A stretch of DNA of 64,000 bases from Bacteroidetes bacterium ADurb.Bin008. Its GTDB lineage: Bacteria; Bacteroidota; Bacteroidia; Bacteroidales; Tenuifilaceae. The translations under genes were made by a program, and so were the position numbers. Within the stretch, counting starts at the first letter, position 1. Each line of letters opens with the position of its first letter. Below are positions 26,676 to 47,986 of the stretch, in pieces. The stretch covers positions 62,001 to 126,000 of the forward strand of contig MWFE01000010.1 of the NCBI GenBank assembly GCA_002071445.1, in the 5' to 3' direction. The notes under the pieces are model-generated. The model did not search any database. It was not told where the DNA came from and saw only the letters and a program-made list of their open reading frames with translations.

Positions 26676-26746
26676 AGGTCTCGAGCGGAATCGAACCGCT
26701 GTACGAGGTTTTGCAGACCTCTGCCTAGCCACTCGGCCACGAGACC
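26676..26746 (-). tRNA. tRNA-Cys (anticodon GCA)
   Basis: Read on the minus strand this gives a 71-nucleotide cloverleaf: acceptor GGTCTCG / CGAGACC, a short D arm, anticodon loop CTGCAAA (anticodon GCA), and a T arm with GGTTCGATTCC-like sequence. The discriminator base is U73, the identity base expected for tRNA-Cys. The 3' CCA is not encoded. A candidate promoter box TATATTTG lies at 26766-26773. Confidence 0.97.
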
Positions 26747-42243: not shown

Positions 42244-42251
42244 CGTTGACA

Positions 42252-43799
42252 ATGAACGTATCCATACTTTGGGTTGATGATGAAATCGATCTGCTACGCT
42301 CGCATATTCTGTTCCTCGAACAGAAAAACTATCGGGTGCTTACGGCCACCAATGGCGAAGATGCGCTTGAACTGGTAGAGCAGAACGATTTTGATCTGGT
42401 CTTCCTGGATGAGAATATGCCCGGCCTGAGCGGCCTTCAAACTCTGGCCCTCATTAAGGAAACGCACCCCATGCTTCCGGTCGTTATGATTACCAAAAGC
42501 GAAGAGGAAAACATTATGGATCAGGCGGTTGGGGCTAAAATTGATGATTACCTGATAAAACCTGTCAACCCCAATCAGGTTCTGCTCTCCATCAAAAAGC
42601 ATGTGCACAACCGGGTTTTGGTGAACGAAAAAACCACTACCGATTACCGTCAGGCATTTGGCGTACTTGGTCAACAAATCGGCATGGCCAGAACTTTTAA
42701 GGAGTGGGCTGATATTTACAAAAAATTGATCCAGTGGGGGATACAAATTTCTGAATCGTCCGATTCCAATATCGGACAGGTTTTTCAGATGCAGATGTCG
42801 GAGGCGAACAACGAGTTTGGAAAGTTCATTAAAAATCATTACTACAGTTGGTTTGACCCTAAGAATGAGGAAAGGCCATTGATGTCGCATAACGTGTTGA
42901 GGAATATGGTTTTCCCAATCATCGACTCGGGGCAGAATGTGCTTCTGATTCTTATCGATAACTTTAGGTTCGACCAGTGGAAGGCCATTCAGGGGCTCAT
43001 AGCCCCATACTGGAGAGTGGAAAAGGAGGTGATCTACTCGTCAATACTCCCCACGGCCACACAGTATGCCCGCAACGCCTTCTTTTCCGGTTTGATGCCA
43101 TTGGAAATTCAGCGTATGCACCCTGAATTGTGGGTTTTCGACGAGGAGGAGAGCGGAAAGAACCTATACGAGGAGGAACTGCTCAAGCGCCAGCTGCAAC
43201 GATTGGGGAAGAGTTACAGGATGCATTACGAGAAGGCCGGCAATCTGGCCGGAGCACCGGTGAAATTGAATCTGAAAGAAATGCTGAAAAATCAGTTAAC
43301 GGTACTGGTTTACAATTTTATCGATGTCATCTCGCATGCCCGAACGGAAATGGAGATGATGCGTCATCTTGCCTCCGATGAGGCAGCATACGTTTCGCTC
43401 ACCCGCAGTTGGTTCAAGCATTCCGACCTTTTCATGCTTCTAAAGGAGGCAGCTGAAGCCAATGTTAAGCTGGTAATCACCACCGACCACGGCACAATAC
43501 GGGTAAAAAACCCCGTTAAAGTGGTGGGCGACAAGGCTACTTCGACAAACCTACGGTATAAGCTGGGGAAAAGCCTCAACTATAATCCAAAGGAGGTATT
43601 CGAAATCAGAAAACCCGAAGACATACACCTGCCCAAACCCAATGTCAGCTCCTCATACATTTTTGCCCTCGGATACGATTACTTTGTATATCCCAATAAC
43701 TATAACTATTACGTGAAGTATTACCGCGATACTTTTCAACATGGCGGGATATCCGTTGAGGAAATGCTTGTGCCATACCTCGAATTTAAAGCCGTTTAG
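42252..43799 (+). CDS. porX: PorX response regulator with PglZ-type phosphatase domain
   Basis: A 515-residue PorX. The receiver domain (about 1-120) has the acidic pair Asp9-Asp10 in WVDDE, the phospho-acceptor Asp53 in VFLDENMPGLSG and the Lys in YLIKPVNPNQ. A helical linker leads to a C-terminal alkaline-phosphatase-like PglZ domain (about 210-515): ILIDNFRFDQWKAI, PTATQYARNAFFSG with the Thr nucleophile, VITTDHGTIRVKNP and GDKATSTNLRYKLGK. In Porphyromonas PorX is phosphorylated by PorY and controls type IX genes through a sigma factor, and has phosphodiesterase activity; the same is likely here. ATG 42252 is the start; an earlier in-frame TTG adds two codons. It is followed 1 base later by tsaE. 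Confidence 0.95.
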   Translation: MNVSILWVDDEIDLLRSHILFLEQKNYRVLTATNGEDALELVEQNDFDLVFLDENMPGLSGLQTLALIKETHPMLPVVMITKSEEENIMDQAVGAKIDDYLIKPVNPNQVLLSIKKHVHNRVLVNEKTTTDYRQAFGVLGQQIGMARTFKEWADIYKKLIQWGIQISESSDSNIGQVFQMQMSEANNEFGKFIKNHYYSWFDPKNEERPLMSHNVLRNMVFPIIDSGQNVLLILIDNFRFDQWKAIQGLIAPYWRVEKEVIYSSILPTATQYARNAFFSGLMPLEIQRMHPELWVFDEEESGKNLYEEELLKRQLQRLGKSYRMHYEKAGNLAGAPVKLNLKEMLKNQLTVLVYNFIDVISHARTEMEMMRHLASDEAAYVSLTRSWFKHSDLFMLLKEAAEANVKLVITTDHGTIRVKNPVKVVGDKATSTNLRYKLGKSLNYNPKEVFEIRKPEDIHLPKPNVSSSYIFALGYDYFVYPNNYNYYVKYYRDTFQHGGISVEEMLVPYLEFKAV

Positions 43800-45648: not shown

Positions 45649-46446
45649 CTACTGTGGTACAAAAAGGTAGGTGATACTTCCCTTTTGTCGGGAACCGCTT
45701 TTATTGCTTTTGTAAAAATAGCTGGCAAGCGCAGCTTCAATGGCTGCAGAATTCATACATTGATCCTGTACAGAATTGGCCATGTCGATGGTGGCCTTGT
45801 CCACTTTACCGTTGTCAAGCACCTCAATGTCCACAACTACCCTGCCGCCCAGTTCGCACTTGTACGATGGCACGGGAAGATATCTGGCCTTGCGCCCTTC
45901 AAGGTAGTAGCTTATTACCGTAGGCCCTTTTATTTGCCCCTCGTCAATGGGCTCTATGGTTTTATCCTCAACATTGGGGATGTCAGGTTCATCAATCCCT
46001 TGCGATTCATCCCACAGCTCACGGTTACGTTGCATCTGTTCACGAATCCTTTGTGCCTCCTGATAGAGTTTATCCGCATCGATACGTTTTTCATCAGACA
46101 ATCCGGGATTAAGGTCTTCTTTGGTTGCGTCCTGAGCAATATTCTGAATGGCCTCGTATTCGTACTGCGGAACCAAGGCATCCCTTGGCAGAAGTGGCTC
46201 GGGCTCCGGCTCTTCTTTTTCGGGGTGTATTTCATATTCCCTGTCAAAATCGATAAGAGCTACGGATTCGTACAGGTACGATTTATTCCTCATTTCGAAG
46301 GAGAGAAGAGCGGTTAGGGCAACCATATTCAGCAGAATGGTACCAAGAATACCCACTTTATGCTTTCCCCACAGGGTGAAAAAGGCATTCGCTATCCTTT
46401 CGAGCCATCGCTCAAAGCGGGTTGAAGTATAGTGGGTTTCGTCCAT
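45649..46446 (-). CDS. TonB-family energy transducer protein
   Basis: A 265-residue protein of the TonB type. One membrane helix (about residues 31-50) follows a basic-acidic cytoplasmic start, then an acidic, Glu/Pro-rich periplasmic stretch (EIHPEKEEPEPEPLLPRDAL) and a long charged helix, and a C-terminal TonB domain (about residues 190-265) with RYLPVPSYKCELGGRVVVDIEVLDNGKVDKATI and an ending GSITYLFVPQ. It would carry proton-motive energy from ExbB/ExbD to outer-membrane receptors such as the one at 6988-10275; exbB and exbD are not in the window. Gene ends are 1 base apart from ald (convergent). A -7 box TATTTTTG is at 46470-46477. Confidence 0.9.
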   Translation of the reverse strand: MDETHYTSTRFERWLERIANAFFTLWGKHKVGILGTILLNMVALTALLSFEMRNKSYLYESVALIDFDREYEIHPEKEEPEPEPLLPRDALVPQYEYEAIQNIAQDATKEDLNPGLSDEKRIDADKLYQEAQRIREQMQRNRELWDESQGIDEPDIPNVEDKTIEPIDEGQIKGPTVISYYLEGRKARYLPVPSYKCELGGRVVVDIEVLDNGKVDKATIDMANSVQDQCMNSAAIEAALASYFYKSNKSGSRQKGSITYLFVPQ

Positions 46447-46598: not shown

Positions 46599-46606
46599 TA
46601 TCTTTG
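46599..46606 (+). promoter_or_regulatory. -7 promoter box of metK
   Basis: TATCTTTG, an exact TAnnTTTG match. A transcript from it would begin near 46613, right at the 5' stem of the candidate riboswitch. Confidence 0.55.
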
Positions 46607-46611
46607 CCGTG

Positions 46612-46668
46612 TCAAGAGTGGAAAAATTTGATTGATTGCAACCACGATAAAAAATGCTAAAACAGTAT
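46612..46668 (+). promoter_or_regulatory. Candidate SAM-II riboswitch upstream of metK
   Basis: The start of the metK leader matches the SAM-II aptamer layout by eye: a 5' stem GTGG (46618-46621) pairs with CCAC (46642-46645); the loop between them ends in ATTGCAA; then GATAAA and GCTAAAA follow in the order and near-spacing of the metX-type SAM-II element, where they form the pseudoknot and bind S-adenosylmethionine. The aptamer begins within a few bases of the predicted transcript start. SAM-II elements are known from Bacteroidota and alphaproteobacteria in front of methionine and SAM genes. The 3' expression part is unclear: about 60 bases separate it from the ATG. Covariance was not tested. 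Confidence 0.6.
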
Positions 46669-46729
46669 TTTATCTTACCAATCTTCAATACTTCCCCGAC
46701 TTTTTTAAAAACTTTAAAAAAATAAAGTA

Positions 46730-47986
46730 ATGGGATATTTATTTACTTCCGAGAGCGTTTCCGAGGGGCATCCCGATAAGGTGGCTGACCAGATTGCCGA
46801 TGCTCTTCTCGATGAGTTTCTCCGTCAAGACCCCGAGTCGAAGGTGGCTTGCGAAATTTTGGTAACCACGGGCTTAGCCGTTCTTAGCGGCGAAGTGCGA
46901 ACCACGGCTTACGTTGATGTGCAGCAGGTGGCCCGCGAAGTGGTTAAACGCATAGGTTACACCAAGTCGGAGTATATGTTCGATGGCGATAGCTGTGGCG
47001 TGATTTCATCCATTCACGAGCAATCGCCTGATATTAACCGTGGGGTAGTACGCCAGAGCGAGGAGGAGCAAGGTGCCGGCGATCAGGGAATGATGTTTGG
47101 CTATGCCTGCCGCGAAACCGACGACTACATGCCTTTGGCAATCGTGCTATCGCACATTCTGCTCATGGAGCTGGCCAAAATTCGCCGCGAGGGGAAGCAG
47201 ATGACCTATCTGCGCCCCGATTCCAAGAGCCAGGTTACCATTGAATACGATGACAACGGGCAACCCCTTCGCATACACACTATTGTCATTTCTACTCAGC
47301 ATGATGAGTTTGATACCGATGAGCGCATGCAGCAAATCATAAGGGATGATATTGAGAAAATTCTCATCCCCCGAGTAAAGAATCGCTTGCCCGAGCGGGT
47401 TCAGAAATTGTGTAAAGGCGATCATAATTTACTGGTTAACCCCACCGGAAAGTTTGTGATTGGCGGCCCTCACGGCGATACGGGGTTGACGGGGCGGAAA
47501 TTGATAGTTGATACCTACGGCGGCAAAGGGGCCCATGGGGGCGGCTCTTTCTCAGGGAAAGACCCCTCAAAGGTTGACCGTTCAGCCTCGTATGCAGCAA
47601 GGCACATTGCCAAAAATTTAGTGGCAGCAGGGGTTGCCGACGAGGTGCTTGTGCAGCTGGCATACGCCATTGGGGTGCCCAATCCGGTTAGTATTTTTGT
47701 AAATACATATGGAACTTCCAGGGTTAAACAATCCGATGCTGAGATAGCGCGGATGGTGGGTAAGATTTTTGATTTGCGCCCTGGAATGATTATTAAAAGG
47801 CTGGGATTGAAAAACCCAATTTACTCTGTAACTGCTGCCTATGGCCATTTCGGTCGCGATTACTTTAAAGCCACCGTTAAAATGGGAGGAGGGAATGGCG
47901 GTAACACCTACGAAAAGGAGGTTGAGTTTTTCACATGGGAAAAGCTTGATTACGTTGAAAAAATAAAGGCAGAATTTAACCTTTAA
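46730..47986 (+). CDS. metK: S-adenosylmethionine synthetase
   Basis: A 418-residue methionine adenosyltransferase that makes S-adenosylmethionine from methionine and ATP. Motifs: [21 protein letters not shown] (methionine and Mg2+ site), [12 protein letters not shown] (ATP site), and [20 protein letters not shown] (P-loop-like), all intact; the central insertion is about 20 residues longer than in E. coli, as in other Bacteroidota. It feeds the radical SAM and other SAM enzymes. The gene follows a candidate SAM-II riboswitch and is closed by a strong terminator, so it is probably monocistronic and under feedback by its own product. Identity firm. Confidence 0.97.

Follow-up and report, generated by a model that had tools for sequence, protein, structure and literature searches.

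A SAM-II riboswitch aptamer upstream of metK in a Bacteroidales genome and a candidate anti-aptamer strand in its leader

The leader of metK in the window (the whole 64,000-nt stretch of contig MWFE01000010.1 analyzed here; features lie on its + strand unless marked (-)) almost certainly carries a SAM-II aptamer, and judging from its sequence this is an ordinary, well-supported member of the known riboswitch family RF01726. Comparisons of sequences support the identity of the aptamer, its site before metK, covariation in its P1 stem and P2a pseudoknot and, among relatives, covariation of a downstream strand complementary to the aptamer. The stretch at 46678–46697 (CCAATCTTCAATACTTCCCC) is probably such an anti-aptamer strand and would take part in a strand-exchange step. 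The strand is replicated in relatives and possibly undescribed; in the part of the literature that we searched we found no description of it in these leaders.

An Rfam scan of the window gave a full-length match to the SAM-II (long loop) riboswitch RF01726 at 46612–46670 (cmscan, model positions 1–60 of 60). The match scored 69.5 bits vs. a gathering score of 44, with an E-value of 2.4e-11 for the 64 kb window and 4227 families. The gene that follows, with its ATG at 46730, extends over 46730–47986 and encodes a methionine adenosyltransferase (SAM synthetase) of 418 aa, which matched TIGR01034 with 530.8 bits (cut-off 309.4). Both matches agree with the sequence-only reading, which had placed a SAM-II aptamer in front of metK. 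That reading had named RF00521 as the covariance model to be run; a significant SAM-II match was obtained, but to RF01726, while RF00521 scored 12.2 bits, below its gathering score of 36, and was rejected as the right model. The individual elements it had listed were all found in the same order in 46599–46730, including ATTGCAA (46635–46641), GATAAA (46646–46651) and GCTAAAA (46656–46662) as read from the sequence. The TAnnTTTG box, TATCTTTG at 46599–46606, indeed lies close to the aptamer, whose match starts at 46612, and the gap to the start codon, estimated at about 60 bases, is 59 nt from the end of the match to the metK ATG.

The aptamer can be drawn as a P1 stem and an H-type pseudoknot. 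In P1, GTGG (46618–46621) pairs with CCAC (46642–46645). Compensatory changes, which had been suggested as a check for this stem and the pseudoknot, were seen among relatives in both. In a larger set the P1 forms were GTGG/CCAC (117), GAGG/CCTC (6), ATGG/CCAT (4), GCGG/CCGC (2) and GTGC/GCAC (1). In an alignment of 24 aptamers, 100% of the P1 cells were paired and three of the four pairs were changed on both sides (G-C to A-U, U-A to A-U or C-G, G-C to C-G). The P2a strands, AUUG (46631–46634) and CAGU (46663–46666), pair with each other and take the compensatory forms ATTG/CAAT, ATTG/CAGT and GCTG/CAGC; in the same alignment three of the four P2a pairs were doubly changed and 75% of the cells were paired. 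Some lineages pair poorly in P2a, and an order-wide comparison of the P2a 3′ strand with its own vs. swapped loops was not significant (z 0.5). P2b consists of UUGC (46636–46639), part of the SAM-binding core, pairing around a U-U with GCUA (46656–46659) of the GCUAAA core block (46656–46661), and it is invariant in the 24 aptamers. The core blocks AUUUG, UUGC and GCUAA are present in the window and equally invariant in this alignment. The covariation score of the alignment was 0.205 vs. 0.086 in shuffles, with none of 500 shuffles as high, and sliding the pairing partner abolished it. Some SAM-II aptamers are longer: in L224 and in phylum-sample matches of about 103–117 nt, a long insertion separates P1 from GCTAAA, and the insertion in L224 could fold into an A/T hairpin (AATAATTTCTTT...AAAGAAATTATT).

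The SAM-II aptamer is present as a single copy in the genome, and a search of the genome for SAM-I as a second SAM-responsive element found none. The aptamer occurs in all 27 genomes of the same family, in 129 of 198 genomes of the same order and in 38 of 247 genomes of a phylum sample. When named genomes were searched independently with a pattern, the matches were nearly all from Bacteroidota, mainly Bacteroidales, and in 75 of 80 independently fetched loci the aptamer was followed within 600 nt by a metK homologue. A genome labeled Alphaproteobacteria (L197, SACF01000002.1) combines a Bacteroidota-type SAM-II with metK and is probably a mislabeled or contaminated MAG.

A chance resemblance, with no riboswitch at this site, is hardly conceivable given an E-value of this size across the whole window and library and the retention of the aptamer, with compensatory changes, throughout the family. 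It is also highly improbable that the SAM-II fold serves a different ligand or works with the opposite sign, responding to some other compound or letting SAM activate metK: AUUUG, UUGC and GCUAAA do not vary in the 24 aligned aptamers, and the product of the downstream gene makes SAM. As the metK leader carries a genuine SAM-II family member, SAM probably switches off its own production.

The box at 46599–46606 is of the Bacteroidota −7 promoter type, as indicated by its sequence and by relatives. Of 105 relatives, 89 have a TAnnTTTG box in the 40 nt preceding P1, vs. 3.0 expected by shuffling, at a median of 12 nt before P1. Since the box stands so close upstream in relatives, the aptamer probably starts at or near the 5′ end of the mRNA. 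On the other side of the intergenic region, which it has in common with the metK promoter, a gene for a TonB-like protein (45649–46446 (-); TIGR01352, 27.5 bits, barely above the cut-off) is divergent from metK. Elsewhere in the window, the ORF at 42246–43799 (+) encodes a response regulator whose translation looks, by eye, like that of PorX from the type IX secretion system, and the Rfam scan placed a tRNA gene at 26676–26746 (-) (60.6 bits), whose anticodon loop CUGCAAA suggests tRNA-Cys (GCA).

When the leaders of relatives were set side by side, a recurring stretch like GCAATCnnCCAAACCTTCCC was seen, a near-complement of the aptamer sequence GGAAAGATTTGnnTGATTGC. In the window, three pairings of the candidate strand with the 5′ half of the aptamer can be drawn: CAAUC (46679–46683) with GAUUG (46634–46638), UCAA (46685–46688) with UUGA (46628–46631), and UUCC (46692–46695) with GGAA (46620–46623). 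Because these pairs use nucleotides of P1, P2a and P2b, pairing of the strand and the SAM-bound fold would be mutually exclusive. In an alignment-free, own-versus-swapped test, we paired the 5′ half of each aptamer with the leader of its own genome and with those of other genomes and compared the duplex energies. The aptamer 5′ half paired better with its own leader (z −10.8; GC-corrected z −9.0), and the effect persisted after removal of similar leaders (z −7.1, 0 of 10000 permutations). It came from the upstream portion only; for the final 20 nt of the leader, z was +0.9. The result was replicated in a held-out set of 31 leaders dissimilar to those of the discovery set (z −4.7, 0/10000). Particular loops also accompany particular leader motifs: CAATCA is associated with TTTGATTG (odds ratio 14.7), CATCC with TTTGGATG (3 of 3) and CAGTC with TTTGACTG (odds ratio 4.5), all three counted with kinship ignored. 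In the family of the window the strand is present in 25 of 27 genomes and absent from the other two, and it ends 27–38 nt before the ATG. Taken by itself, the window leader does not stand out in folding energy (z −0.93) and favors its own aptamer only modestly over others (own-versus-other z −0.5). With so weak a signal in the window alone, the case for the strand there is one by homology.

With the aptamer forced to fold, as in a SAM-bound state, a possible start-codon hairpin was predicted at 46693–46735, in which UCCC (46693–46696) pairs with GGGA (46732–46735) around an inner A/U hairpin; the pairing of the start region itself amounts to only 4 base pairs in the window. In a test of 79 short-leader relatives, the segment from −46 to −20 paired better with its own start region (−3 to +14) than with those of other genomes (GC-corrected z −5.3, 0/5000), with control windows in the coding sequence giving z near 0. 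After de-duplication to 53 leaders of the discovery set, the value was z −4.6 (0/10000). The identical test in the 31 held-out leaders gave no support (z +0.2); a variant pairing the first 40 nt of the leader with the start gave z −2.9 in that set and was chosen after the fact. No start-codon signal was seen in long leaders, and the two control groups, 24 metK leaders without the aptamer (z −1.2) and 33 long ORFs of the window (z 0.3), were not significant. The competing strands overlapped barely above chance (34 of 53 vs. 0.50 expected). Matching the leaders against exact k-mer complements of the individual start-codon classes was mostly uninformative. TCCC occurred in 29 of 47 leaders with ATGGG starts vs. 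18 of 58 others (p 0.003, kinship ignored). Given support in the discovery set and the failure of the identical test in held-out leaders, we keep the start-codon helix only as the preferred hypothesis.

From these observations we infer the transcription start, the binding of SAM, the direction of control and the masking of the start codon as parts of one scheme, in which the metK mRNA would begin with a cis-acting riboswitch that represses SAM synthesis when SAM is plentiful. Transcription would begin just past the TATCTTTG box. At low SAM, the CCAAUC-UCAA-UUCCCC strand (46678–46697) would pair with the aptamer 5′ half (46620–46638) and thereby break up P1, the pseudoknot and the SAM pocket; metK would then be expressed. 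At high SAM, P1 and the pseudoknot (P2a/P2b) would be stabilized and the anti-aptamer strand left free. Feedback repression would call for an inhibitory effect of the freed strand, which would act against metK, in our preferred route through pairing of its UCCC end with GGGA of the AUG-GGA start region, which would hide the start codon. The complete chain, from a cis-acting SAM-II switch through strand exchange and inhibition by the freed strand to start-codon masking as the favored route, stands in our judgment at even chances. The mechanism across the gap, left open by the sequence-only reading, would be partly filled by the covarying strand that lies in this 60-base interval.

In the relatives L064, L069, L058 and L108, metK leaders with a hairpin and a T-run were observed, possible intrinsic terminators. 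The main rival to start-codon masking, which we prefer for the window, employs the same anti-aptamer strand and lets the freed, C/U-rich strand load Rho or serve as the 5′ arm of an intrinsic terminator; SAM would then cause premature termination. The L064 and L069 leaders, which belong to the long ones, have the layout of a classical antiterminator: their hairpins (AAATCTCTCC...GGAAGAGATTT-TTTTTTT, −11.0 kcal/mol; TCTGATAAACAATTATCAGA-TTTTTTT, −6.5) have a 5′ arm complementary to sequence on the 5′ side of the aptamer. Moreover, the freed strand is C-rich and G-poor, and putative terminators were reported for many proteobacterial SAM-II leaders (PMC1273637). Against this, no intrinsic terminator (stable hairpin with T-run) was found between the aptamer and metK in the window, indeed no terminator-like hairpin in the leader, and such hairpins are not clearly above shuffles (15 of 105 relatives vs. 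46 of 525). We consider termination possible but rather unlikely. Direct occlusion, in which the pseudoknot covers the ribosome-binding site within P2 and the leader strand plays no switching role, is the textbook mechanism of classical SAM-II riboswitches such as that of metX (PMC10907184). It misfits here because the metK aptamer ends 59 nt from the ATG, which does not agree with a ribosome-binding site embedded in P2; the distance from GCTAAA to the ATG is at least 51 nt in the compared relatives, and the covariation of the anti-aptamer strand would go unexplained. We regard direct occlusion as quite improbable.

SAM-II in the Bacteroides group was noted already in 2005 (Corbino et al., 2005, PMC1273637), and Weinberg et al. 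(2010, PMC2864571) described the long-loop family RF01726 from sequences of Bacteroidetes and of marine origin. The metK aptamer shares with RF01726 the full-length match, the Bacteroidota host, P1 and the H-type pseudoknot, the SAM-binding core blocks and the location in the leader of a methionine/SAM gene, here metK. It differs in that the 60-position Rfam model stops at the aptamer, so that the strand at 46678–46697 lies outside it. With the alphaproteobacterial sister RF00521 (SAM_alpha, classical SAM-II) it has in common the core blocks AUUUG, UUGCA and GCUAAA and the type of fold, but it differs in P1 and in loop spacing. The SAM-II riboswitch of Sinorhizobium meliloti metA (PMC9373788) also has its effective start codon far downstream, at 74 nt; yet it masks a Shine-Dalgarno sequence inside the riboswitch, whereas the candidate platform described here would rely on exchange with a downstream strand.

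As such the riboswitch is unexceptional, one further metK in the known SAM-II long-loop set, and the anti-aptamer strand matters more. Bacteroidetes mRNAs are without classical Shine-Dalgarno sequences (PMC7366714), and it is not obvious how riboswitches of a phylum that does not rely on them control translation; start-codon masking, which we prefer, would suit such a phylum. We suggest, tentatively and with more doubt than confidence, that the SAM-II riboswitches of Bacteroidota metK use an undescribed expression platform, in which a leader strand that covaries with the aptamer core would alternate with the SAM-bound fold and, once released, mask the start codon of mRNAs lacking a Shine-Dalgarno sequence, some lineages having a terminator variant. 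The covarying strand, some 30 nt ahead of the start codon, provides a concrete, mutable element in the leader.
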